A stretch of 41,151 bases of DNA from contig JAFAHT010000059.1 in NCBI GenBank assembly GCA_019237095.1, positions 1 through 41,151 of the forward strand. Reading direction: 5' to 3'. The notes under the pieces are model-generated. The model was not told where the DNA came from and did not search any database. It worked only from the letters and a program-made list of their open reading frames with translations. The position numbers were made by a program, and so were the translations under genes. This DNA is from Planctomycetaceae bacterium (lineage in GTDB: Bacteria > Planctomycetota > Planctomycetia > Isosphaerales > Isosphaeraceae). Below, in pieces: positions 3,486 through 40,037 of this stretch (positions within the stretch are counted from its first letter, which is position 1; every line of letters begins with the position of its first letter).

Positions 3486-5255
3486 TCATTTGTGGCTCAG
3501 CTCGATCACGTCGAAGGCCGTGTCGGGGGGGGACCGGAGGCACTCGCTGGCTCGGGCGAGCAGGGCGAGCGCGGGCTGATCGAACGCCTCCCTCCGACCC
3601 CGAAGGATCGGGTAGAGGGCGGCACACGACTCGGCCCATTCCCCCTGCTCGCAGAGGGAAAGGGCCGTTTCGTAGGCGTCGCGCATCGCGAGCCATTCCG
3701 GGGTGGGGTGGCCGCCGTGAAGCTCGTAAAGGTCGGTGGGGGCGTCAATCCCGACGACGCGGACCCGGCAGAGCCGGCGCGTGGGAAGGGAGTCACCAAT
3801 CAAGGCGCGGGTGGTGCCGGTGATCAGCACGGGGACGCCGAGCTGTTTCGTCGCCCCCTCCACTCGGCTGGCGAGGTTGACCGTGTTGCCTAGCGGGCCG
3901 TACTTCAGCCGCCGGAGGCTGCCGGTGTTGCCCACGAGAGCGTCGCCGGTGTTGACGCCGATGCCCAGCGCCAGGGTGGTCTGGACCTTCGAACCCCAGC
4001 ACTCGTTGAGCCCGGGCAGTTCGCCGAGCATGGCCTGCGCCGCGCGGCAGGCGCGAGCGGCGTGGTCCGCCTGGGCCAGTGGAGCATTCCACATCGCGAG
4101 GATTCCGTCGCCGACATAGTCGACAACCACACCCCCGTGCTCGTAGATCCGCGCGGTGAGCCGCTCCAGGATGTCGCCCATGAGGAGGCAGGTCTCGCGT
4201 GCCCCCAGTCGCTCGGCGATCCGGGAGAAGCCGCGGATATCGCTGACAAGGATTGACACCTCGCGATCCTGCCCCAGGAGGAGCTCCGGGTTGCGGTCGA
4301 GCTCGTCGGACAGCTCACGGGAGAAGAACTGCTCGAACTGGACATGGCGGCGGGCGGCCTCGGCCTCCGTACTGACCCGGGCGATCCCCGCGGCGGCTGC
4401 CGCGGCCAGAACCTGGACGAGCTGTGCGTGCAGGGGCTTCAACTGGGAGGGGCCGATCGCCTCGCGCCTCACCTTGGCCCCGAACACCGCCCCGATCACC
4501 GCCCCTCCGTCCGGGTCGAGGATCGGGGAGGCGACCACCGCCGTGATCCCGGTCAGGCTCACTGACGGGTCTTCCAGGCCACCGCCTTGATAAAACGTCC
4601 GCCGCTCCTCGCGAACGCGCTCCAGGACGGTCCGGCTGTAGTTGACGCGCGGGGCGCCCGGTGCCGAATGCACCGCGACAGGCTCCCACTTTTCGCCCTT
4701 ACGCAGCAACACCAGCCCGTGATCCAGCCCGATCAGATCGACCACCGCCCGGGCGATCTCCTGGTAGAACTCCGGAGACGATGCCGCGGCACGCTGGACG
4801 CTGACGAGCGTCTCGAACCAGCGCGTGAGCTGTGATGGGTCGGGGACGTCGGTGGCGGGGTCAAGCGTGAGCGCGCGTCGGAAGCCGGCAGTGGCGATCG
4901 GCGGTGTGACGGTGCACAGCACCGTGGAGTCGACCGGCAACTCCCCACCCTTGCGGATCTCGATCGCGGTCTGGCCGAGCGTAAGCCTGAGCGGCGTCGC
5001 GAGCTCGCGAGCCTCGCCGACCTTGATGTGCGAGCCGTCCTCGAGCGGGACCGCAACGCGCTTACTCAGGTTGGCAACTCGAACCGCTCCGGACGGCAAT
5101 TCTTCCACCCGCAGGTGGTCCTTGGACACATATGGGTCCTTGTCGAGCACGCACCGGTGGGTACCGGGCCGGGGCTCACGGCCAAACTCGAAGGGCCCCG
5201 AGTCGTGGTCGAGCTGTTGCGATCGGCCCTTGCTTGACACGAAGAACTGCAACAT
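3486..5255 (-). CDS. FHA-GAF-class III adenylate/guanylate cyclase
   Basis: A 589-aa soluble signalling protein. Residues about 20-75 form an FHA domain (FGREPRPGTHRCVLDKD, then VSKDHLRVEEL, with the conserved Gly-Arg and Ser..His), which binds phosphothreonine. Residues about 145-300 look like a GAF domain. Residues about 325-515 are a class III cyclase catalytic domain: VSDIRGFSRIAE with metal Asp 339, VGDGILAMW with metal Asp 383, and NTVNLASRVEG with Asn 460 and Arg 464. The positions that normally select ATP (Lys and Asp) are Asp 379 and Gly 453 here, so substrate choice cannot be read from sequence. The C-terminus (about 530-589) resembles a short helical repeat. No Ser/Thr kinase lies nearby to supply the FHA ligand. 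Confidence 0.88.
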   Translation of the reverse strand: MLQFFVSSKGRSQQLDHDSGPFEFGREPRPGTHRCVLDKDPYVSKDHLRVEELPSGAVRVANLSKRVAVPLEDGSHIKVGEARELATPLRLTLGQTAIEIRKGGELPVDSTVLCTVTPPIATAGFRRALTLDPATDVPDPSQLTRWFETLVSVQRAAASSPEFYQEIARAVVDLIGLDHGLVLLRKGEKWEPVAVHSAPGAPRVNYSRTVLERVREERRTFYQGGGLEDPSVSLTGITAVVASPILDPDGGAVIGAVFGAKVRREAIGPSQLKPLHAQLVQVLAAAAAAGIARVSTEAEAARRHVQFEQFFSRELSDELDRNPELLLGQDREVSILVSDIRGFSRIAERLGARETCLLMGDILERLTARIYEHGGVVVDYVGDGILAMWNAPLAQADHAARACRAAQAMLGELPGLNECWGSKVQTTLALGIGVNTGDALVGNTGSLRRLKYGPLGNTVNLASRVEGATKQLGVPVLITGTTRALIGDSLPTRRLCRVRVVGIDAPTDLYELHGGHPTPEWLAMRDAYETALSLCEQGEWAESCAALYPILRGRREAFDQPALALLARASECLRSPPDTAFDVIELSHK

Positions 5256-5346
5256 CAGATCGACCCCTCTCGCCGCTGATCGTCATCGCGGTGTCCGGTC
5301 CGGTCCGGCGGTCCGTGACGAAGGGATTGGTCGAAGAAAACCGTTT

Positions 5347-5496
5347 TCAGTTCCTGCCACCTTTTCGATTCTCGAGGACTCCGGACTCCACCAGCCGCTC
5401 GTACTCATCCACGGTCATCCGGTGGAGCTCGTCGAAACGAATTCCGCAGAGTCTCTCACCGGTTACGACTCTCCAGCGGCCATCGCTTCCCCCCAT
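5347..5496 (-). CDS. 49-aa ORF directly behind fumarase, resembling the N-terminus of Uma2-type proteins
   Basis: Too short for the ORF track. It starts with ATG at 5496, one base after the fumarase stop (TGAAATG), and ends in TGA at 5347-5349, giving 49 residues. The second half reads RMTVDEYERLVESGVLENR. From memory this resembles the opening of many planctomycete Uma2 (DUF820) proteins, where the chain would continue into the PD-(D/E)XK nuclease core. Here it stops after KGGRN. Two readings fit: a remnant of a decayed Uma2 gene, or a genuine short protein translated by coupling to fumarase. GC-rich third positions favour coding. There is no independent ribosome site. Confidence 0.5.
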   Translation of the reverse strand: MGGSDGRWRVVTGERLCGIRFDELHRMTVDEYERLVESGVLENRKGGRN

Positions 5497-5497
5497 T

Positions 5498-7126
5498 TCA
5501 AGATAGCACCGGTAACTGCGAGAAGAACTCGTTGCCCTTGTCGTCGACCAGGATGAAGGCCGGGAAATCGACGACGTCGATCTTGTAGACGGCCTCCATG
5601 CCGAGCTCGGGGTACTCGAGCAACTCGACCTTCTTGATGCTCTCCTGGGCCAGCAGTGCGGCGGGGCCGCCGATCGAGCCGAGGTAGAAGCCGCCGTGCT
5701 TCTTGCAGGCGTCGGTCACGGCCTGCGAGCGGTTGCCCTTGGCGATCATCACCATCGAGCCGCCGTGGGACTGGAACAGGTCCACATAGCTGTCCATCCG
5801 GCCGGCCGTTGTGGGGCCGAACGAGCCGGAAGGAGCCCCGGGTGGGGTCTTGGCCGGACCGGCGTAGTAGACGGGATGGTCCTTCAGATAGTCGGGCATG
5901 CCCTCTCCCCGGTCGAGCCGCTCCTTGATCTTGGCGTGGGCGATGTCACGCGCGACCACGATCGTCCCGGTCAGCTTCAAAGGGGTGGAGATCGTATACT
6001 TCGAAAGGTCGGCGAGAATCTGGTTCATTGGGCGGTTGAGGTCGATATCGACGCCGTGCTTGTAGCCCAGGCCCGAGCGGTACTGTGCGGGGATGAACCG
6101 GGCCGGGTCGCGCTCCAGCTCCTCGAGCCAGACCCCGTCGCGGTCGATCCGGGCCTTCATGTTGCGATCGGCCGAGCAGGACACGCCGATTCCCACCGGA
6201 CAACTGGCGCCATGGCGAGGCAGGCGGATCACCCGGGCGTCGAGCGCGAAGTACTTGCCGCCGAACTGGGCCCCGATCCCGCTCTTGCGGGCCAGGTCCA
6301 TCACCGTCTCCTCGAGTTCCAGGTCGCGGAAGGCCTGACCGAGCTTGCTTCCCTGCGTCGGCAGCTTGTCGAGATACCCCGCACTGGCGAGCTTGACCGT
6401 CTTCATGGTCGCCTCGGCCGACGTCCCACCAATCACCACCGCGAGGTGATAGGGTGGGCAGGCGGCCGTGCCCAGCGAACGCAGCTTCTCCTTGAGAAAC
6501 TTCTCCAGGCTCGCCGGATTGAGCAGCGCCTTGGTTTCCTGGAAGAGCATCGACTTGTTGGCCGATCCGCCTCCCTTGGCGACGAACAGAAACTCATACT
6601 TCTCGCCCGGGGTCGCGAAAATGTCGATCTGGGCCGGCAGGTTCGTGCCGGAGTTGATCTCGTCGTACATCGAAAGCGGAATGGTCTGCGAGTAGCGGAG
6701 ATTCTCTTTCTGATACGTGTCGAAGACTCCCCGCGACAGCCACTCCTCGTCCTTGGCGCCGCCGGTCCAGACGCGCTGGCCTTTCTTGCCGATGATCGTC
6801 GCCGTGCCGGTGTCCTGGCACATCGGCAGCTCGAACCCCGCGGCCACCGCGGCGTTTCGCAAGAGGGCCAGGGCAACGCCCCGGTCGTTGGGCGACGCTT
6901 CGGGATCGTCGAGAATCCCCGCGACCTTGGCGAGGTGCGCCGCGCGGTACAGAAACGAGACATCCCGCAGGGCTTCCCTCGCCAGAAGCCGGAGCGCCTC
7001 CGGCTTGATCTTGAGGATCTCTTCTCCCTCGAAGGTCGCAGTGGAAACGAGATTTGCATCGAGCTTGCGGTAACTGGTCGAATCAGGGGCCAGGGGGAAA
7101 GGGTCCTGGTAAGCGAACTCTGGCAT
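5498..7126 (-). CDS. fumA: Fumarate hydratase class I (single-chain, [4Fe-4S])
   Basis: A 542-aa protein of FumA/FumB length, collinear with the class I family. It catalyses reversible hydration of fumarate to malate in the TCA cycle, using an oxygen-sensitive [4Fe-4S] cluster. The expected Cys ligands are visible in [11 protein letters not shown] (Cys 103), [15 protein letters not shown] and [13 protein letters not shown]. The C-terminal half has the [13 protein letters not shown] region and [11 protein letters not shown], typical of the beta part of two-subunit class I fumarases, so alpha and beta are fused here. The start ATG at 7126 is supported by the family alignment. A 49-aa ORF follows with one base between. 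Citrate synthase is also in this window but not linked. Confidence 0.95.
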
Positions 7127-7201
7127 GATCGGCTCCTCCCGAAGAAGTCCGGGCGGGGTTGTTCTACCCTCGTCGGGTCAAATCACGAGGAGCCCATTGT
7201 A

Positions 7202-7870
7202 TCACGGCTGGAGCTCGAGAGTCGCCCAGAGGCTGGGATTTTCGCCGAGCGGAAAATCGCGGCCGACGCCCAGGAACTGGTCCTCGCGCTCGTGGTCCGA
7301 AACCTGATAGGCAAAGCCCAGCCGGCGGTTCGTCTCCGGATCGAAGCCGTGCAGGGCCCGGGCCGGCAGAAAGAGCTCCAGGAGCCAGCCAGCTCGGGAC
7401 AGCTCGGCGTGCATGCTCAGCACGTCGGGCGAGGCGATCGGGGCGTCGGCAACGGCCCGGGCAATCGCACGCTGGCTGACATCGACATCCAGGCTCTTGC
7501 AATCGCGCCCCAGAGTCAGATGCGCTGTGAAGCGATGGCAGAAGCGCGTGGCCCGGCTCACGTTGCGGGTATCGCGCGTGTCGATCCAGAGGTTGACATC
7601 CGCGAACCCTTCGGGCCGATTCGCACTTCTGGCAGCCTTGCTGGCCGGTGCGTCCGCCAGGATCGCGATTCCTAGCCCCCCAGGATTCCAGGCGAGCCGC
7701 ACTGATGCCCAGGAGACGCGGCCTTCGAGCGACGAAAGATCCGGAACCGCACAGGTTGCGGGCAGATCGAGCAGCCCGCCGCGCGCACCGCGACGGGGGA
7801 TCTCCTCGACCCGCGGACACGGTGCACTGAGCCGGAACCAGAACGCCTGGGGCAACAGGGCCTTGCCCAT
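7202..7870 (-). CDS. CBM9/DOMON-like domain protein, 222 aa
   Basis: The start is ATG 7870, preceded by CGGGAG at good spacing. A GTG at 7912 overlapping the upstream stop (GTGA) is an alternative that would add 14 residues. The protein carries beta-rich sequence with the pattern of carbohydrate-binding family 9/DOMON-like domains: DVNLWIDTRDTRNVSRATRF in the middle and WLLELFLPARALHGFDPETN plus RRLGFAYQVSDHERED near the end. In that superfamily the fold binds sugars or haem, but I see no clear ligand residues. No signal peptide is visible, which is odd for a sugar-binding domain. It lies just after the membrane protein gene, and translation may be coupled. Function unknown. Confidence 0.6.
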   Translation of the reverse strand: MGKALLPQAFWFRLSAPCPRVEEIPRRGARGGLLDLPATCAVPDLSSLEGRVSWASVRLAWNPGGLGIAILADAPASKAARSANRPEGFADVNLWIDTRDTRNVSRATRFCHRFTAHLTLGRDCKSLDVDVSQRAIARAVADAPIASPDVLSMHAELSRAGWLLELFLPARALHGFDPETNRRLGFAYQVSDHEREDQFLGVGRDFPLGENPSLWATLELQP

Positions 7871-7908
7871 CGCGAAACACTCCCGGACCGCACCGCAGCG
7901 CAACACGC

Positions 7909-8235
7909 TCACTCGAGCGACGAATCGACAAACGGCTTGGGTTTGGAGAACGGGCTGGGCTTGACCAGGGCACCGATGATCGTGCTGACCCCGAGCCCGA
8001 TCAGCAGGAACGCCAGGCTGTACCGCGCCAGGGCCCAGACCCCGATGAAGGCCGACCAGAATCCGAACTGGATCCCGTACCAGGGCTGGTCCTTGAGCCA
8101 TCCCTCGATGAAGGCGGTGATCGCGATCAAGAACATGATGCCCGGCCACCAGAATCGGGTTGCGAACAGGACGCCGATCCCGATCAACCAGATCCCGCCA
8201 ATCAAAGTCCTGCGACGTCCCGGCTCAGGGTGCAT
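7909..8235 (-). CDS. Small membrane protein with two hydrophobic hairpins
   Basis: A 108-aa protein from ATG 8235. The track start at 8256 is a TTG without better support. It has two hydrophobic blocks, LIGGIWLIGIGVLFATRFWW with PGIMFLIAITAFIEGW, and FWSAFIGVWALARYSLAFLL with IGLGVSTIIGAL. Each is long enough for one or two membrane passes, and a short charged C-terminal tail follows (KPKPFVDSSLE). The pattern is similar to LiaI/LiaF-type transmembrane modules, but this is a weak resemblance. It overlaps the possible GTG start of the CBM9-like gene and is probably co-transcribed with it. Confidence 0.6.
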   Translation of the reverse strand: MHPEPGRRRTLIGGIWLIGIGVLFATRFWWPGIMFLIAITAFIEGWLKDQPWYGIQFGFWSAFIGVWALARYSLAFLLIGLGVSTIIGALVKPSPFSKPKPFVDSSLE

Positions 8236-8330
8236 GTGCGATGCCCCGCGGTGCAAGAAAGTGCGCGAGTTCCCGGAAAGTCCGTCCGCGCCTCACGGAG
8301 TGGTTCGTGAAACCATCGCAATTATTGCGG

Positions 8331-29909: not shown

Positions 29910-31439
29910 CTATTCCTCAAACATCCGCTCGACCGGCACGATCTTGACGGTCACGTTCTTGAGCGGAAAGGCGGCGATTTGCTTGTCCTCGGCGAGGATA
30001 TTCTCGGGGGTTCCCCGGGTGTCGTAGGTGATTGGCGAGGGCTTGCCCGAGGTCAGAATGTCACGCAGCTCGTCGGCGTTCCGGGACACGATGGCGATCT
30101 TCATGCCGGGCGGCTTCAGATGCTTTCGGACGGCCGCGTTGACTTGCTCGACGGTCAGCTTCGGCAGCCGCTCCGCCAGCTCGGTGACGAGGTCGTTGCG
30201 GCCGTAGAACTGGCCGTCGATTGCATAGCCCAGCCGGCGTGAAAGGGTCTGGACCCAGAGCTTGCTGTAATTGAGCAGGAACGAGCGCGTGGCCTCGAAA
30301 TCGGCCGGGCTCATGCCCTCGGTAGCGAGTCGGTCCAGCTCCCAGAACGCGGCGCGGAGGGCGAAGGCGGCCTTGTCGATCGGCACGGGCCGCACCCAGA
30401 TCGAGAAGTACTGCTGTCTTCTCGGGTTATTGGGAACCTGGAAAGTGCTCATGCCTTCCTGGATGAAATCTTCGATGTACGAGTAATCGCCGTAATTGAG
30501 CCCGCGCTTGCCGCGGAGGTCCTGCATGAGCTTGCCATTGAACGTGCGGTGCTCGCCGAGATACGAGTTGGCCACGGCCAGCGCGTAGAATTCGTCATCG
30601 CGCCGGGTCACGTCGATTGGGAAGCCGATCGAGATGGCTGTGGCCTCGGCCGGTTTGGCGACGATCGTCACCTCCAGTCCGGGACGTACGGCCGGCGGAT
30701 CGAGCAGTGGCAATCCCTGCGCCTGGCGGGGCAGGGACGCCAGGTTCGACTCGACCTGCGAGGCGGCCGCCGGTTCGAATCCGCCCGCCATGCCCAGGGT
30801 GAGCGCCTCGCGCGTGTAGTAGCGCTTGTGAAACGCCTTCACGTCGTCGAGCGTGATCGCCTTGAGGCCCTGCACGGTCCCGCGGTCGGGATGGCCATAG
30901 GGATGACCCTTATAGAGGTCGCACTGTAAGGTCCACTTGCCCAGCTCCTCATCGTTGTTGCCGCGCAGGGTTTTGGTGACGTAGTCGAGGGCCTCGTTGC
31001 GCAGCCGCTCGAAGTCGTCGGGGGCGAACCGGGGGGCCGTCAGCAGCTCGGTCACCAAGGGGATATAGGCCTTGAGGTTGTCTCGATGCACGGTGCCCTG
31101 GAAGGCCGTGGCCTCCTTGCGGCAGGCGCCGTCGAGGGTCGCGGCCATGGGGTAGAACTTTTCCAGGAGCTGTTCATACGAGAGGCTGGCCGTGCCCCCC
31201 TCGGCGATCATGGCCGTGGTCAGGGCGGCCAGACCTTCCTTGCCGCTGGGGTCGTCTTGCGAGCCAACCCGGAACACGAATCGGAGGGAGACCAGGGGGC
31301 TGGACGGAGAAGGGATCAGAATCGCACTCTTGGCAGCGACCTTGGTCTGCCCAGGCTCGGCGGAAGGTGCCGTGGATCCGGCGGTTAGGAGCAGCCAACC
31401 GAGTGAGAGGGCCAGGACGATGCGGTGTTTCCCATTCAT
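29910..31439 (-). CDS. Non-catalytic M16 peptidase-family subunit, exported
   Basis: A 509-aa protein with a signal peptide (IVLALSLGWLLLTAGSTAPS, about residues 7-26). It has the two M16 half-domains but the expected HxxEH zinc site is absent: the equivalent helix reads GLAALTTAMIAEGG. The conserved C-domain segment LMQDLRGKRGLNYGDYSYIE, with the Arg and Tyr that help substrate binding in M16B enzymes, is kept. This is the pattern of the inactive partner in two-subunit M16B peptidases. The start overlaps the stop of the catalytic gene by 4 bases (ATGA), with GGAG 8 bases upstream, so both are translated together and probably form a heterodimer in the periplasm. Confidence 0.9.
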   Translation of the reverse strand: MNGKHRIVLALSLGWLLLTAGSTAPSAEPGQTKVAAKSAILIPSPSSPLVSLRFVFRVGSQDDPSGKEGLAALTTAMIAEGGTASLSYEQLLEKFYPMAATLDGACRKEATAFQGTVHRDNLKAYIPLVTELLTAPRFAPDDFERLRNEALDYVTKTLRGNNDEELGKWTLQCDLYKGHPYGHPDRGTVQGLKAITLDDVKAFHKRYYTREALTLGMAGGFEPAAASQVESNLASLPRQAQGLPLLDPPAVRPGLEVTIVAKPAEATAISIGFPIDVTRRDDEFYALAVANSYLGEHRTFNGKLMQDLRGKRGLNYGDYSYIEDFIQEGMSTFQVPNNPRRQQYFSIWVRPVPIDKAAFALRAAFWELDRLATEGMSPADFEATRSFLLNYSKLWVQTLSRRLGYAIDGQFYGRNDLVTELAERLPKLTVEQVNAAVRKHLKPPGMKIAIVSRNADELRDILTSGKPSPITYDTRGTPENILAEDKQIAAFPLKNVTVKIVPVERMFEE

Positions 31440-32794
31440 TTTTTCTTCTCCGTTTCGAGAATGATCACCGTCTCGTTGGTCGGGATGAAGTACCTGGCGG
31501 CCACGCGCTGGAGGTCGGCGGGAGTGAGACGTTCGAAGGCGGCGAAGAGGTCGTTCATGGCGTCAGGCCGCCCGGTGATCGCGATCGATTCGCCGATGGC
31601 ATGAGCGACCGCGTCGGCGCTGCGCAGCGACGCGGCGTAAGCGTACTTCAGATGCGACCGGACAGCGTCCAAGCGCGCGGAATCGATGGGCGTCCGGCCC
31701 GCCTCCGCCAAGGCATCGGCGATTCGCTGCCGCACCGCCGGCGGGTCGGCGGAGATCCGAACCCGCGCGATGATTGAGAACAGCCCCGGATCGCGGTGTG
31801 GAGAGGCCTCGGCCATGAGGGTCACGACTTTCTGCTCCTTGAGCACCAGCTCCCGGTAGAGTGGGCTGGTCTCGCCGAAGACGGCCTGCTCGATCGCTGC
31901 CAAAGCGGCGATGTCGGGATTTGCCGGGTCCGACGCGGGCATGTGATAACCGAGGTAGAGCGTGGACAGAGTCGGCACGGGCCAGCTCAGGTGGGCATTT
32001 CGCGGCTCGGTCTGCGGCGGCTCCTTGGGAATCTCCACGCTGGCCTTGCCGCGAGCCCACGAACCGTAGTGGGCCTTGACGAGGGAGACGAGCTCGTCAT
32101 GCTTCACGTCACCAGTCACCACGATGGTGCAGTTCTCGGGCCGGTACCAGCGGTCGAAGAAGATCTTGCTGTACGCATACTGGTTGGGCATGTCCTTGAT
32201 GTCTTCCAGGAACCCGAGCGTTGTATGCTTGTAGGTGTGCCTGGTGAAGGCCGTGTTCTGCATCGCCTCCTCCAGCTTGAGGAACGGCGAGGAGGCGTTC
32301 TTGTTGTACTCGCCGAGCACGGCCCGGGCCTCTTTCTGAAACGACGGCTCATCGTACTTGAGGTTCTCGAACCGGTCGGACTCGATCTCGACGGCCGTGG
32401 CCAGCGCAGAGGCTGGGATCGTCATGTGATAGCACGTCCAGTCATCGGTCGTGAAGGCATTTGAATCGGCGCCCAGCGACTTGAGGACGTCGTTGTACTT
32501 CTCTTGCGAGTACTTCTGGGTGCCGCGGAACATCATGTGCTCGAAAAAGTGGGCGAAGCCCGAGAGCCCCTTTTCCACCTCGTTGCGCGACCCGGTGCGG
32601 ACCACCGTGTAATAGGCAATGATCCCCGGCGAGTCAAACGGGACGGAGATCACGGAGAGGCCGTTGTCCAGGGTTGTCTGCTGGATCGGAAACGGAAAGA
32701 TCGGCTGTCGCTCGGCCTGCCCTGGTCCGGCCGCGGGGGCGGTTACCAGCATGAAGAGCATGATCACCGCCGCGAATTGTAGGCATCGAGGCAT
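31436..32794 (-). CDS. Catalytic M16 zinc peptidase subunit, exported
   Basis: ATG 32794 is chosen (MPRCLQFAAVIMLFMLVTA, 452 aa) because AAAGGAG lies 12 bases upstream; the track start is a TTG. A signal peptide covers about 1-25. The inverted zinc motif is GFAHFFEHMMFRGT (His82-x-x-Glu85-His86), and Glu162 in VLGEYNKNASS, 76 residues on, is the third ligand as expected. RWYRPENCTIVVTGDVKHDE and the second half-domain follow. It cleaves peptides or misfolded protein fragments in a closed chamber with the downstream partner. A 62-aa exported protein gene lies 42 bases upstream on the same strand, suggesting a three-gene operon. Confidence 0.93.
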   Translation of the reverse strand: MPRCLQFAAVIMLFMLVTAPAAGPGQAERQPIFPFPIQQTTLDNGLSVISVPFDSPGIIAYYTVVRTGSRNEVEKGLSGFAHFFEHMMFRGTQKYSQEKYNDVLKSLGADSNAFTTDDWTCYHMTIPASALATAVEIESDRFENLKYDEPSFQKEARAVLGEYNKNASSPFLKLEEAMQNTAFTRHTYKHTTLGFLEDIKDMPNQYAYSKIFFDRWYRPENCTIVVTGDVKHDELVSLVKAHYGSWARGKASVEIPKEPPQTEPRNAHLSWPVPTLSTLYLGYHMPASDPANPDIAALAAIEQAVFGETSPLYRELVLKEQKVVTLMAEASPHRDPGLFSIIARVRISADPPAVRQRIADALAEAGRTPIDSARLDAVRSHLKYAYAASLRSADAVAHAIGESIAITGRPDAMNDLFAAFERLTPADLQRVAARYFIPTNETVIILETEKKK

Positions 32795-32836
32795 CGTGAA
32801 ATTGAACTCCTTTGGATTCAAAATCGCCGCGAAAGA

Positions 32837-34256: not shown

Positions 34257-37200
34257 TCACGGCGAGGCCGGAGATGGCGACGCCGCGGCGCGGGTCGGGA
34301 TGCGCGCTGGAGCGGTGCTGGGACGATCCAGTCCCAGGGGAGCGGATCCGTCTCTGACCTCCTGGAGTCTACGCAGATACCGGGAATAGAGCTGAGTGTG
34401 GCGGCTCTCTGGCGTCAGGTGCTTGCCGTCGATAAAAAGGGCGAGTACCGACGTCGTGGGCTGGAGAATATGGCCGGCCGTGACGACCAGGTTGGCGCGC
34501 TTGCCGGCTTCCAGCGACCCGACCCGATCGGCGATACCCAGAATCTGCGCCGCAGTGAGCGTCACCGCCTTGAGCGCAACGTCCTCGGGGAGGCCGAATG
34601 CGACGGCCGTCGCCGCCTCGTAGGGGACATTCCTGCCATTGGTCGCCCCGGCGGTGCCCCCTCTCTTGGAGCTGATCGCAACGGTGACACCCGCTGCGTG
34701 CAGCCGCGCCGGGTTGGCATACGCGGCGTCGTAGGGATCATGATCGTGGGACGGCACGTTCAACGTTCCACCGACGAGCACCGGCACTCCGGCCTCCTTG
34801 AGCGCGCCGGCAACCTTCCAGGCCTCGCTACCTCCCGAGATCACCGCCTTGAGCTTCAGTTCCTTGGCGATCGCCAAGGCGTCGAGAATCTCGGTGCGAT
34901 GGTTGGCCAGGAAGACCACCGGCTGCTGACCCTTCGCATAGGGGACAAGCGCGCTGAGGCGCGGGTCGAAGGGCGGGGGAGCCACACCCTTGGACCGGGC
35001 CTGGGCCACGATCTCGCCGTATCTGAGCGCCCTGCGAAAGTGCTCGCGGATTGCCTCGAGCTGCTCTTTCCGTCGGGCCTGCGGGTCCGGACCACCCTCA
35101 GCGTCTTCCTGTCCAGGACCTGGACCTGCACCGGGCCTCCTGCGCGGGCCTTCGGGCGTCCGGGGAACGAAAGTGGGAATGGTCACGTCAAGCGCTGCGG
35201 GATCGACGACGACGAGCTCGCGAGGAACCCAGCCGCGCAGGTTGATCACGCAGCCCTGGCCCGAGATCAGCCCCCCGGTCGGCTGCACGTACGCGGTCAA
35301 GACGCCGTTGGCGCGGGTCACCGGAATGTGTTCGGAGTCGGACCGGAGGGCCGTGCTGGCCCGCAGCTCGGGCTCGAATCGGCTGGCGTCGGCGTAGTCC
35401 TGGGTCACGGGCAGGCTGTCGATCTCGGAGAGTCCGATGGTCGAGCCGGCGTCAATCAGGCCGGGCCAGATCTCCAGTCCGCCCAGCTCGATCGTCTGGG
35501 CTTCTGGTGGAACCCGCGTGCCGGCGGGGCCGACCGCGGCAATCTTGCCATCGGCCACGATCAGTGTTCCGTTGGGGATCGGCGGGCCAGACACGGGGTG
35601 CAAGGTTGCGCCGACCAGCGCGAAGACGCCCTTGGGCTGGGAAGTGAACTCGACCACGTGGTTCCGAGCGGCTTCGGTAGCCTGCGGCATCGTCTGGTGG
35701 TCTCCGGGCCGGGCGCCGAGCTTACCGTCGGGCTCGGGCCGCTGGAAGTAGACCTCGCCCTCGATCAAAGCCAGCTCGCAGCGCGAGAAGGCATCGAAGG
35801 GATGGGCGTTGAAGAGCACGATGTCGCCGTCCTTGCCGGCCTCGATCGAGCCCAGACGACGGTCGAGTCCGAGCTCGCGCGCGGGGTTGAGCGTGATCAT
35901 CGCCAGCGCCTGAGCCTCGCTGACCCCGCCATACTTCACCATCTTGGCGGCCTCGAGGTTCAGATGGCGGTTCAGCTCCTCGCTGTCGCTTTTGATGCAG
36001 ACATTGACCCCGGCCTTGGTCAGCAGGGCGGCGTTGAACGGAATCGCATCGTAGGCCTCGACCTTGTAGGCCCACCAGTCCGAGAACGTGGAGGCACTGG
36101 CACCGTGGTCGCTGATCTCGGCGGCGACCTTGTAGCCCTCGAGCACGTGCTGGAGCGACTGGACCTTGATGCCGTGGCGCTCGGCGGTGCGCAGCAGCAT
36201 CAGGATCTCGTCGCTGCGGTAGCAATGACTGTGAATCTTGATCGATCCCTCGACGATCTGGGCCAGGGCTTCGAGCCGCAGATCCCTGCGCGGGGGCGGA
36301 CCGGCCTTGTCCTTCATCCGGGCTTGCTCGTAGCTCTTCCATTCCGCAAGGTACGCCTTGCCCTCCTCGAACGCCCGCTCGATCACCGACTCGACACCCA
36401 TCCGCGAATTGGGAAATCGACCCTGCGACCGGGTCACGTTCTCACCCAGGGCGAACTTCACGCCCTGGGGGGCATCGCGGATCAAGAGCTCACGTCCCGG
36501 CTTGCCGTAGCGCAGCTTGACCACGGCGTCCTGCCCCCCGATCGTGTTGGCCGAGCCGTGCAGCAGCCGAGCGGTGGTCGTACCGCCGGCCAGGGCCCGA
36601 TAGATCGACACATCATCGCCCGTGACCACGTCCTTGACGCGCACCTCGGGAACGATCGACAGACTGAGCTCGTTGACACCCCCCTGGATGGCGATATGGG
36701 AATGGGTGTCGATAATTCCGGGCATGGCGACGAGCCCTGCCGCCTCGATCACGGTGATTCCAGGTTTGGCCTTCACGCCTGGCCCCACGGCCGTGATCTT
36801 GCCGTTCTCGACGAGTATCGAGCCGCGGGCGATGGTTCCCTGGGAGACGGTCAGGATCGTCGCATCCTTGATCAGCACGCTGCCGCCGGTTTTGATCTTC
36901 GGCGCGCGATCGGCATCGAATTCGGTGGCCACGTCAACGAGTGGCTTGGGCGGAGCCTTTTCCTCGGGGCTGGCCGGCCTGGAACCGGGTGCTGGGCCAC
37001 GGCCCCCAGCCGGCTCGGCCTTGGGCTTCGCACTGGCAGGTGGCAAAGCCGTCTTGGGCTCGGCCTCCGCGGGCGGCTGAGCGGCTTTGGACTTTGTCTC
37101 TGCTGGCGGAGTGGCCTTGAGCTTGGCCTCCGCGGGCTCCTGAGCGCCCTTGGGCGGACAGGGGCTCTCCGATTTCGCGTCGGGCGATAGGGTGCCCGCG

Positions 37201-38918
37201 TTGGTCTTGGCGGCATCCGGGCGGTTTCCGGTCTGCGGTGGAGCTTGCCTCTGCACGTCAGGACGTGCCGAGGGATCCGGTCGTGGCCCGCCCGGAGAAT
37301 CGCCGGTTCTTTCCTGTGCGCCGGGTCGCGATTCACCCCGCGGCCCTCCCCCGCGCCCTGAAGAGAGACGGCCTTCTCCGGCCCCTGGCTCGGGAGCCTT
37401 GACCTCGAACTTGAGCCCGTCGATCAGCACGAACCGGGCCTTCGCCTGCTCGTTCTGGAACGGTGCCGTGAATGCCACCAGATGGCCGAGCTTGCCCCGC
37501 TCGAGAGTACCCAGCTTGCTCTCGAGGCCCGCGATGGTGGCGGCCTGGGTCGTGAGCGCCGCAAGGGCCTGGTCAGCCGTCAGACCGTTGGAGATCAGGG
37601 CGCGAAGCCGCGCCGGGAAGCTGTCCAGCCGCTCGAGACCCTCGGTGGCGAAGGCAAACGGGATTCCCGCCCGCGCCAGGGCGGCCGCCGTGGCCACCTG
37701 TTCCTTCCACTTGTCGCGGCGATGGGCCAGTAGCTTCAGCGGCTCTTCCTGCTCGAGCAGCGGCCGCTTGCGGTATTCCTCTTCGGTCGGGACCTTGGGC
37801 TCCTCGGGAAAACTGAGCGGGAGGATGACCGCGACGTGTTCGGCTTTCAACCGGTCGGCGACCTCGGCGGCCTCGCGGCCGCCGACGATGACGGCCGTGG
37901 TCCCGAACTCGGCGGCGAGATCGAGCGCTCGGTGGATCTCGTCGCGAGTGTCGGCCTGCCACCACACCGGCAGTTTCCGGCCCCGGGCCTGCCACAGAGT
38001 CCGCAGCGCAGGGTCATAGGGCGTACGGACAGAGCTACCGCCCTGATCCAGATCCACGAGCTTCTGGTGATATTCGGCGTCGAGCATCGCCTGCCGCAGG
38101 TGGGCAACCGCGCCCATGAGCGCGCGAGGGTAAGGGTTCTCGCTGCCGCCCTGATCCACGGCCAGCTTGCGGCGGCCAAGGCCCGGCGGCTGGAGTGAGG
38201 TGTCCGGACGGCCCGGGGTCGCCGCGGCGGAAGGTTCGGTGGGCTGCGCGAGGTGGACGTGGAGCGCGACGGGAGCCTTCACAATCGCCTCGCGACGGGG
38301 AAGGCCGCTCAGGCTGACCAGAGCGCTCTGGCCGGTTGCGATCGCGCCGCCGGGCGCCGACACGAAGGCAGTGAAACCGAGGCGACGGCGTGACTCGGCG
38401 AGCGCATCGGTCAGTTCGAGCGCCCCGGCCGCCTCGAATTCTGGGGTCAGCCCCCGGCGATTGTCGGCCGGCGTCGCGGCCAGCGGCGATTCGGCCAGGT
38501 CCACCGGCCGCCCGCGCCCGGTAGCCGACCGTTCCACACCCGGCCGCTGCCCGGCCGTCGTGAACAGGTCGATGAAGCCGGGATAGACTGTCAGACCTTT
38601 GCCGTCGATCACCTCGGCATCGAAGGGCACCACAACGTCCTTGGCCGGCCCGACCGCCTCGATCAGCCCGCCCCGGACCACGATCGTTCCCGGGTCATGA
38701 ACCTTGCCCGGCGCGGCGATGATCTTCGCATCCTTGATCGCATAGGCAACGGGGTAGCCATTCCGCGGCCGCGCGGGGTCGTCGTCTCCACGCGCGGGAG
38801 CGAGCGCCGGCAGAGCGGCTCCGAGCCAGCCGATCGCCAGGGTCAGAAGCAGAGCGCCCAGAAGAGAGTTAGTGAGCTTCATCGGCCGCCGCGAACCCGG
38901 ATTCAAGGGTCGTCTCAT
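34257..38918 (-). CDS. Giant exported three-module amidohydrolase
   Basis: ATG 38918 follows CCGGAG; the track start is a GTG four codons earlier. The 1553-aa protein has a signal peptide (about 13-45) and three imidazolonepropionase-like amidohydrolase modules. Module 1 (about 55-510) has the beta entry and AGLESKLGTLERGKLGHLVA exit but reads YPGFIDLFTTAG where the metal HxH should be. A 150-residue Pro/Ala/Lys linker follows. Module 2 (about 675-1065) is intact: MPGIIDTHSHIAI with the HxH pair, IKIHSHCYRSDEI, SLQHVLEG and CIKSDSEE. Module 3 (about 1095-1530) again lacks HxH (WPGLIDAGSTIG) but keeps the fold and GIADRVGSLEAGKRANLVV. Only module 2 should be catalytic, hydrolysing an amide or cyclic bond outside the cytoplasm. 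The substrate is unknown. Confidence 0.9.
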   Translation of the reverse strand: MRRPLNPGSRRPMKLTNSLLGALLLTLAIGWLGAALPALAPARGDDDPARPRNGYPVAYAIKDAKIIAAPGKVHDPGTIVVRGGLIEAVGPAKDVVVPFDAEVIDGKGLTVYPGFIDLFTTAGQRPGVERSATGRGRPVDLAESPLAATPADNRRGLTPEFEAAGALELTDALAESRRRLGFTAFVSAPGGAIATGQSALVSLSGLPRREAIVKAPVALHVHLAQPTEPSAAATPGRPDTSLQPPGLGRRKLAVDQGGSENPYPRALMGAVAHLRQAMLDAEYHQKLVDLDQGGSSVRTPYDPALRTLWQARGRKLPVWWQADTRDEIHRALDLAAEFGTTAVIVGGREAAEVADRLKAEHVAVILPLSFPEEPKVPTEEEYRKRPLLEQEEPLKLLAHRRDKWKEQVATAAALARAGIPFAFATEGLERLDSFPARLRALISNGLTADQALAALTTQAATIAGLESKLGTLERGKLGHLVAFTAPFQNEQAKARFVLIDGLKFEVKAPEPGAGEGRLSSGRGGGPRGESRPGAQERTGDSPGGPRPDPSARPDVQRQAPPQTGNRPDAAKTNAGTLSPDAKSESPCPPKGAQEPAEAKLKATPPAETKSKAAQPPAEAEPKTALPPASAKPKAEPAGGRGPAPGSRPASPEEKAPPKPLVDVATEFDADRAPKIKTGGSVLIKDATILTVSQGTIARGSILVENGKITAVGPGVKAKPGITVIEAAGLVAMPGIIDTHSHIAIQGGVNELSLSIVPEVRVKDVVTGDDVSIYRALAGGTTTARLLHGSANTIGGQDAVVKLRYGKPGRELLIRDAPQGVKFALGENVTRSQGRFPNSRMGVESVIERAFEEGKAYLAEWKSYEQARMKDKAGPPPRRDLRLEALAQIVEGSIKIHSHCYRSDEILMLLRTAERHGIKVQSLQHVLEGYKVAAEISDHGASASTFSDWWAYKVEAYDAIPFNAALLTKAGVNVCIKSDSEELNRHLNLEAAKMVKYGGVSEAQALAMITLNPARELGLDRRLGSIEAGKDGDIVLFNAHPFDAFSRCELALIEGEVYFQRPEPDGKLGARPGDHQTMPQATEAARNHVVEFTSQPKGVFALVGATLHPVSGPPIPNGTLIVADGKIAAVGPAGTRVPPEAQTIELGGLEIWPGLIDAGSTIGLSEIDSLPVTQDYADASRFEPELRASTALRSDSEHIPVTRANGVLTAYVQPTGGLISGQGCVINLRGWVPRELVVVDPAALDVTIPTFVPRTPEGPRRRPGAGPGPGQEDAEGGPDPQARRKEQLEAIREHFRRALRYGEIVAQARSKGVAPPPFDPRLSALVPYAKGQQPVVFLANHRTEILDALAIAKELKLKAVISGGSEAWKVAGALKEAGVPVLVGGTLNVPSHDHDPYDAAYANPARLHAAGVTVAISSKRGGTAGATNGRNVPYEAATAVAFGLPEDVALKAVTLTAAQILGIADRVGSLEAGKRANLVVTAGHILQPTTSVLALFIDGKHLTPESRHTQLYSRYLRRLQEVRDGSAPLGLDRPSTAPARIPTRAAASPSPASP

Positions 38919-39182
38919 GGTCGTGTTCACTCCGGATCGAATCTTCCGAGCAATTCCGGAACGGGCGATCCGGCTCCGCTCGACGAGGAGAAACCGAAAA
39001 GCAGGTGGGAGAGGTCGCGTCCTGGAAAGCCCGCCGGTCCTGTCCGAGATTCTCCAAATGAAATGATTGGAATCAACCCGGGCCGCACCATCAAGTCCCG
39101 ACCAGGTTCACTTTACGGAATGGCGCTTTTTCCCTGTGTCCTGGACCGGTTTTCTGACGTGATCGTCGCCTGCCCTACGATC

Positions 39183-40037
39183 TCACGGCGAGGGCGGCCA
39201 TCCACGTGGAAAGCAGCCGTAGATCGCCTTGTAAGCCCGGACCGTTGTCGGCGGCGGGCCTTTGAGGGCCTCCTCGATCGACTCGCGATACCCCTCCTCG
39301 AGTGTTTCGCGCAACTCGGCCAGGTTCTTGTCTTGCTGCTTGGCCTCCGCCTCCTTGGCAAGGACTTCGGAGGGAGAGTAATTCAGCCAATCGGGATCGT
39401 GCTTTTCGTCCAGGGCTTCCTTGAGCGGCCGCAGATCGACCGCGTAAAGCTTGGGAAAGTGATAGATCCAATCGAGCCGGCGACCCTGGAAACGGCGGAA
39501 GATCATTTGGTAGACAGGCGTGAGATCCGCACGCTGAGCAACCCAGATCGTCCCCATGTAGAAATCAAGATAGTCGTAATGCTCCGCGCCTGTCTGCCGA
39601 TTCAGGATCTCCGCCAGAAAGCCGCCACTAGCCCGGAACGAACCGAGATCGAGCACGCGGCCATCAGTCGCGGTGACCTGGTGACCATCGGAGAAAAGGT
39701 CCCAGAGGCACTGCCCGACCAGCTCACGGACTTCCCGCACGGTCTCCACGGGACGTTCTCGAAAGTCCCTGGCAACTTCGTCGAACGTTGGTTCCAGCGG
39801 CAAGGGGTGCCGGTCGTTCGGCCTTCGTAGCGCGCAAACGTTGCGATGGAGGCGGAGAGTCTCTTCATAACTTTGCGCGAGTGAGGGGTGGAACACGGCG
39901 AGCAGTGGCGAGTTTTCCCAGCCGGCGGGTGCAAGTTCTTGCAGAACATCCGGGCCGGCGAATCCTTGGGGGAACAAGCGGTCGAATTCCGCCCCAAGGT
40001 CCGCTTCGCTAAAGGAATCCGTGTCGAAGTTCGTCAT
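39183..40037 (-). CDS. Hypothetical protein, 284 aa
   Basis: ATG 40037 has GAGG 7 bases upstream. The product begins MTNFDTDSFSEADLGAEFDR and is soluble. The centre holds HYDYLDFYMGTIWVAQRADL then TPVYQMIFRRFQGRRLDWIY, a well-conserved-looking aromatic block. A Lys/Glu-rich helical segment (about 215-265; SEVLAKEAEAKQQDKNLAEL) follows, and the C-terminus is RAYKAIYGCFPRGWPPSP. I recall similar uncharacterised proteins in planctomycetes but cannot name a family. No catalytic motif is evident. The gene sits 74 bases after the PIN toxin gene on the same strand and could be a passenger of that module. Separated by 264 bases from the amidohydrolase. Confidence 0.7.
   Translation of the reverse strand: MTNFDTDSFSEADLGAEFDRLFPQGFAGPDVLQELAPAGWENSPLLAVFHPSLAQSYEETLRLHRNVCALRRPNDRHPLPLEPTFDEVARDFRERPVETVREVRELVGQCLWDLFSDGHQVTATDGRVLDLGSFRASGGFLAEILNRQTGAEHYDYLDFYMGTIWVAQRADLTPVYQMIFRRFQGRRLDWIYHFPKLYAVDLRPLKEALDEKHDPDWLNYSPSEVLAKEAEAKQQDKNLAELRETLEEGYRESIEEALKGPPPTTVRAYKAIYGCFPRGWPPSP

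Follow-up and report, generated by a model that had tools for sequence, protein, structure and literature searches.

A dead-live-dead array of amidohydrolase modules in a planctomycete protein: putative fused form of an exported hydrolase complex

Introduction

Pseudoenzymes tend to come to light singly. Within the amidohydrolase superfamily, the CRMP and dihydropyrimidinase-like proteins are non-enzymatic folds that are kept for assembly; they give weak sequence matches to the protein described here but differ from it in being eukaryotic and cytoplasmic and in lacking a fused live module. Another case is Pseudomonas aspartate transcarbamoylase, which is reported to need an inactive amidohydrolase-superfamily partner, pseudo-dihydroorotase (pDHO), for activity and stability (PMC7053772). 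The likeness to the present case would lie in an inactive amidohydrolase being kept as the partner of an enzyme, as proposed below for the outer modules; pDHO, however, partners a transcarbamoylase, whereas the dead partner in the present case is a paralogue of a live amidohydrolase and is apparently exported. M16B peptidase pairs, composed of an active and an inactive subunit, likewise represent an exported-type live/dead homologous pair, although their fold is unrelated.

The closest solved relative of the central module studied here is a Thermotoga maritima amidohydrolase, 3ooq (phmmer E 1e-52; Foldseek TM 0.89), with which it shares the GGQ, GLKxAxGEN and HAHRADD motifs; unlike the protein described here, 3ooq is a single chain of 396 residues with its ligands intact. 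Xaa-Pro and arginine dipeptidases (3n2c, 3mtw) are among the next nearest folds, with far weaker E-values of about 1e-14 to 1e-15, and metal-dependent peptide cleavage as in these enzymes is the likely kind of chemistry. Neither a paper naming 3ooq nor a published account of live/dead amidohydrolase pairs was found in the open-access literature. Here we describe a trimodular member of the superfamily from a Planctomycetaceae bacterium, encoded on contig JAFAHT010000059.1 within an analysed stretch of 41,151 nucleotides (the window).

Architecture and predicted fold

The trimodular ORF lies on the minus strand at 34257-38930 and encodes 1557 amino acids from a GTG start; an in-frame ATG at residue 5, four codons past the GTG, would place the end of the gene at 38918. 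Its N-terminus (MRRP...LLGALLLTLAIGWLGAALPALAPARG, 38787-38918) is signal-peptide-like and is followed by module 1 (M1, residues 60-515, 37386-38753), a linker rich in Pro, Ala, Lys and Glu (about residues 516-681, 36888-37385), module 2 (M2, residues 682-1068, 35727-36887) and module 3 (M3, residues 1100-1510, 34401-35633), all on the same strand. The module exits read LGTLERGK, LGSIEAGK and VGSLEAGK. Among the relatives sampled, the linker ranges from 33 to about 200 residues.

Pfam Amidohydro_1 matches the ORF three times (157.6 bits, cut-off 25), and profile-profile comparison joins all modules (M1-M3 E 4e-68, M2-M3 E 2e-47, M1-M2 E 1e-34), with M1 and M3 as the closest pair. AlphaFold2, run on two-module constructs with 65-row alignments, gave a mean pLDDT of 89.2 and a pTM of 0.91 for M2+M3, and a pLDDT of 82.1 and a pTM of 0.83 for M1+linker+M2 despite about 160 disordered residues (pLDDT 31-45 in the linker core; blocks of M1 mostly above 90). 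Amidohydrolase secondary structure and a full barrel are predicted for each of the three modules. These pTM values would be hard to reach without confident relative placement of the modules, although in a fused chain tethering may inflate the packing.

The best PDB match of both models was 3ooq (Foldseek TM 0.87-0.89 by target length), followed by dipeptidases and other amidohydrolases with far weaker E-values. The Pfam scores above cut-off, the predicted barrels and the Foldseek matches place the protein among the (beta/alpha)8 barrels of the amidohydrolase superfamily, while full-length similarity to 3ooq in both sequence and fold was found for M2 only. Two narrower assignments were rejected: imidazolonepropionase (HutI, TIGR01224), whose cut-off is 298, reached 98.5 bits when its matching stretches were added up, and Xaa-Pro dipeptidase (NF051886) scored 128.6 against 500.

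The initial annotation had proposed a threefold amidohydrolase layout with a Pro/Ala/Lys linker after the first module, and both features are borne out by the Pfam matches, the profile links and the models, the linker being also Glu-rich and predicted to be disordered. It had named a non-barrel fold of M1 and M3 as counting against its reading, and both come out as barrels; its comparison with imidazolonepropionase-type enzymes holds at the level of the fold and fails at the level of family membership.

Retention and loss of the metal ligands

The metal-binding HxH motif had been noted in M2 only, where it reads IIDTHSHIA (from residue 739; ligands H743 and H745, 36696-36704), against FIDLFTTAG in M1 (residue 119, 38550-38576) and LIDAGSTIG in M3 (residue 1158, 35433-35459). 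The remaining ligands behave likewise. M2 carries K825 after strand 4 (36456-36458), H902 on strand 5 (36225-36227), H928 on strand 6 (36147-36149) and D982 on strand 8, a ligand or catalytic Asp (35985-35987), and the aligned K/H/H/D columns of the window protein are H/Q/G/E in M1 and D/L/G/K in M3. The invariant lysine after strand 4, a putative bridging carbamylated residue by comparison with the superfamily, suggests a binuclear site of the carbamylated-Lys type.

Eighty related loci, almost all of them titled planctomycetes, were recovered in one scan of genome contigs and yielded 65 full-length planctomycete relatives. All six M2 ligands are invariant in these 65, and the matching sites of M1 and M3 vary. 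In a wider alignment of 298 modules, the complete set was found in 102 of the 108 M2 modules; in the remaining six a truncated locus or ORF leaves gaps at HxH, so that every M2 spanning the positions is complete, and K825, H902 and D982 are invariant in 108/108. Both HxH histidines are kept in none of the 82 M1 or 107 M3 modules, and the strand 6 histidine is replaced by glycine in 80/82 M1 and 98 M3; one locus (L114) that was labelled M3 by its best HMM is a single live gene and was excluded from the M3 counts. No alternative set of metal ligands was found for M1 or M3 in either the 65-sequence or the 298-module alignment.

The order of a live M2 followed by a dead M3 recurs in 20 further loci, with two exceptions. 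L146, from a planctomycete, is an unpaired live gene, and L155 (G018:C198) has M1 only, as a separate M1-like gene of 623 residues. The M2 and M3 pair of the L155 genome lies on a different contig from the M1-like gene; both are near contig edges and their linkage is uncertain. The pattern of ligand retention and loss is far above chance, holding in the 65 planctomycete relatives and in all deeper relatives examined. The dead-live-dead array on one exported chain that had been proposed is thus supported, given that M1 and M3 are predicted barrels with no alternative ligand set, and the survey of planctomycete homologues extends the loss of HxH in M1 and M3 to all 65 full-length relatives, while module number and fusion vary.

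Gene order and fusion state across genomes

All 28 strong M2 loci (E <= 1e-84) identified in 79 genomes of the same phylum have an M3 directly adjoining M2, according to a cross-reading of two search tables. The gene order is always M1-M2-M3, while the state of fusion varies: all three modules are fused in the window gene and in L116, L117, L119, L121, L122 and L133; M1 is separate from fused M2-M3 in L118, L120, L123, L124, L125, L126 and L134; and fused M1-M2 precedes a separate M3 in L127, L130, L131, L135 and L149-L152. M2 and M3 occur as separate genes without M1 in L128, L132, L147 and L148 as well as in the sphingomonad loci L110 and L111. Beyond what the initial annotation had described, fusion is therefore optional, and the dead partners are elsewhere separate genes. 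Colinearity together with varied fusions forms what appears to be a Rosetta-stone pattern.

Outside Planctomycetota, where sampling comprised a handful of plasmid records, M1-M2 and M3 were also identified in Hymenobacter (Bacteroidota, L109), where the region is split among several ORFs. These lie at 3824-8245 of a Hymenobacter volaticus plasmid and overlap in different frames, reflecting either a decaying copy or sequencing errors. Active-type relatives encoded by a single gene are found in Bacillota, Actinomycetota, Thermotoga and the planctomycete locus L146, and a second, more distant set (L136-L145, L153, L154) has a live gene in tandem with a dead gene. Some dead copies of this second set keep the first histidine of HxH (e.g. 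IDAHAT), possibly representing an intermediate state.

At the start of the split-form ORFs, immediately ahead of the first module, lies a hydrophobic segment that is signal-peptide-like by eye. In Qipengyuania, the live subunit is lipoprotein-like (VAGC) and the dead subunit has its own signal-like start. Because of these export-like starts, the dead modules apparently reach the compartment of the live module even when they are encoded separately.

Evolutionary origin

In a tree of 96 modules, M1 and M2 each form one clade (100/100). When the second set was included (94 modules), the distribution of live and dead states needs one change, all dead modules falling on one side of a branch with good, not full, support (80/99); the main M3 group is the sister of M1 (100/100). 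With the root placed on the live relatives encoded by a single gene, the tree can be read as follows: the gene was duplicated once, the downstream copy lost its metal site, the two copies were inherited together for a long time, and the dead copy was then duplicated in turn, which would have given rise to M1. With such a late origin, M1 is expected to be missing from deeper-branching loci, a prediction borne out by the sphingomonad and L128-type loci, which lack it.

Selection on the outer modules and their possible role

For the 16 closely related pairs shown, dN/dS was 0.04-0.18 in M1, 0.03-0.30 in M3 and 0.02-0.16 in M2, the values of the dead modules being usually somewhat above those of M2; mean pairwise identity is 41%, 51% and 65%, respectively. 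All three modules thus have dN/dS values well under one, so M1 and M3 are maintained, and both show the loss of catalytic residues under purifying selection that is expected of a conserved pseudoenzyme. Comparison across genomes suggests that they are ancient conserved partner subunits and not decaying duplicates. Their constraint is distributed differently from that of M2: information content in the six ligand-equivalent windows and in the rest of the module is 3.59 vs 2.85 bits in M2, compared with 2.10 vs 2.27 in M1 and 2.53 vs 2.50 in M3, where the alignment is less sure and precision limited. The strongest conservation in M1 lies outside the pocket, e.g. at Y267, P268, M272, G273, R279, Q280 and D284. 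That the dead modules are constrained chiefly away from the old pocket speaks for a role in structure or at an interface.

We therefore favour, with reasonable confidence, an interpretation in which the window protein unites in one chain the three subunits of an exported hydrolase complex, where M2 is catalytic and M3 and M1 are ancient pseudoenzyme scaffold subunits. M2 would be the sole catalytic subunit, a metal-dependent amidohydrolase with a complete and probably binuclear HxH/K/H/H/D site, and would cleave an amide-type bond of a small extracytoplasmic substrate, most likely a short peptide or related amide. M3 would be an old pseudoenzyme, descended from a copy of the catalytic gene that arose by tandem duplication, that packs against M2, probably filling the place of an identical subunit in an ordinary oligomer and stabilising M2 or shaping the mouth of its active site. 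M1 would be a second pseudoenzyme, a later duplicate of the M3 lineage packing on M2 from the N-terminal side, and the long linker would serve simply as a tether, given that the modules occur as separate genes as well. The physical complex, the stabilising role, the metal number and the substrate are what we infer in this proposal; the association of M2 with the dead modules is proposed on the basis of fusion and colinearity and of the confident predicted packing of the fused two-module models. As single-gene active relatives exist, a dead partner is not required by the fold as such.

The same data bear on other roles for the outer modules. The initial annotation had left two options for them, scaffolds or substrate-binding lobes. 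If they were lobes of the latter kind, non-cutting barrels would bind substrate in the old pocket and hand it to M2, and both modules do keep a full predicted barrel with some pocket-side residues retained, such as a basic residue followed by Ser before the position of the strand 8 ligand in most M3; however, pocket-equivalent positions of M1 and M3 are no better conserved than elsewhere, unlike those of M2, and we regard this role as unlikely. Of the two options the scaffold is favoured, because the dead modules are strongly constrained while their old pocket shows no extra conservation over the remainder of the module. Next in rank, and improbable in our estimation, are allosteric or targeting subunits whose surfaces off the old pocket would contact a regulator or the cell envelope: the peak of M1 conservation outside the pocket and the predicted export of the complex would fit, but no additional domain was detected and no conserved neighbour among 81 ORFs of 22 loci points to a regulator, even though sequence alone cannot tell such subunits from a scaffold. 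A different, metal-free reaction in rebuilt active sites could accompany the total and fixed loss of ligands, yet no new conserved polar cluster was found at the six ligand-equivalent windows of M1 and M3, and we consider it very improbable. The least credible view, which treats the outer modules as neutral leftovers of duplication, draws on their faster evolution relative to M2 and is contradicted by strong purifying selection and by retention across phyla.

Returning to the scaffold interpretation, we lean towards regarding these loci as an undescribed and widespread class of exported hydrolase complexes, in which one old duplication would have produced a dead amidohydrolase that has stayed next to the live copy in planctomycetes, Bacteroidota and sphingomonads, with a further duplication producing the second dead subunit and repeated fusion and splitting leaving the M1-M2-M3 order unchanged. 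Since one family contains single live genes, live/dead pairs, live/dead fusions and dead-live-dead fusions, the contribution of a dead partner is testable across natural versions. Proteins annotated simply as "amidohydrolase family protein" can thus be non-enzymes, which bears on automatic annotation.

Genomic context

No function emerged from the neighbours, as no Pfam family was present in more than two of the 22 loci tallied (81 neighbouring ORFs, called mechanically). Clustering of neighbours in the planctomycete loci returned mainly a divergent gene, rho-like by eye, and a downstream thioredoxin-like gene. On the Qipengyuania citrea plasmid (L111, 819-5308), a peptide MFS transporter gene immediately precedes the live/dead pair and an FKBP-type isomerase follows it; a GntR-type regulator gene is also close by. 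In the window, an M16 peptidase gene pair is located at 29913-32821 on the minus strand, the first gene having an HFFEH active site and the second lacking HxxEH; judged by these motifs, it is another live/dead pair. Such a pair is found downstream of the trimodular gene in four Isosphaeraceae loci, namely the window, Aquisphaera (L016) and Singulisphaera (L018, L025). The peptide transporter, the M16 pair and the dipeptidases nearby in fold space are suggestive of a peptide-like substrate, to which they point weakly.

Upstream of the trimodular gene, a 284-aa ORF on the minus strand (39186-40037) is without any Pfam match. An open frame of 930 amino acids runs antisense to the trimodular gene on the plus strand (34398-37190) and most likely arises from the codon usage of high-G+C DNA.
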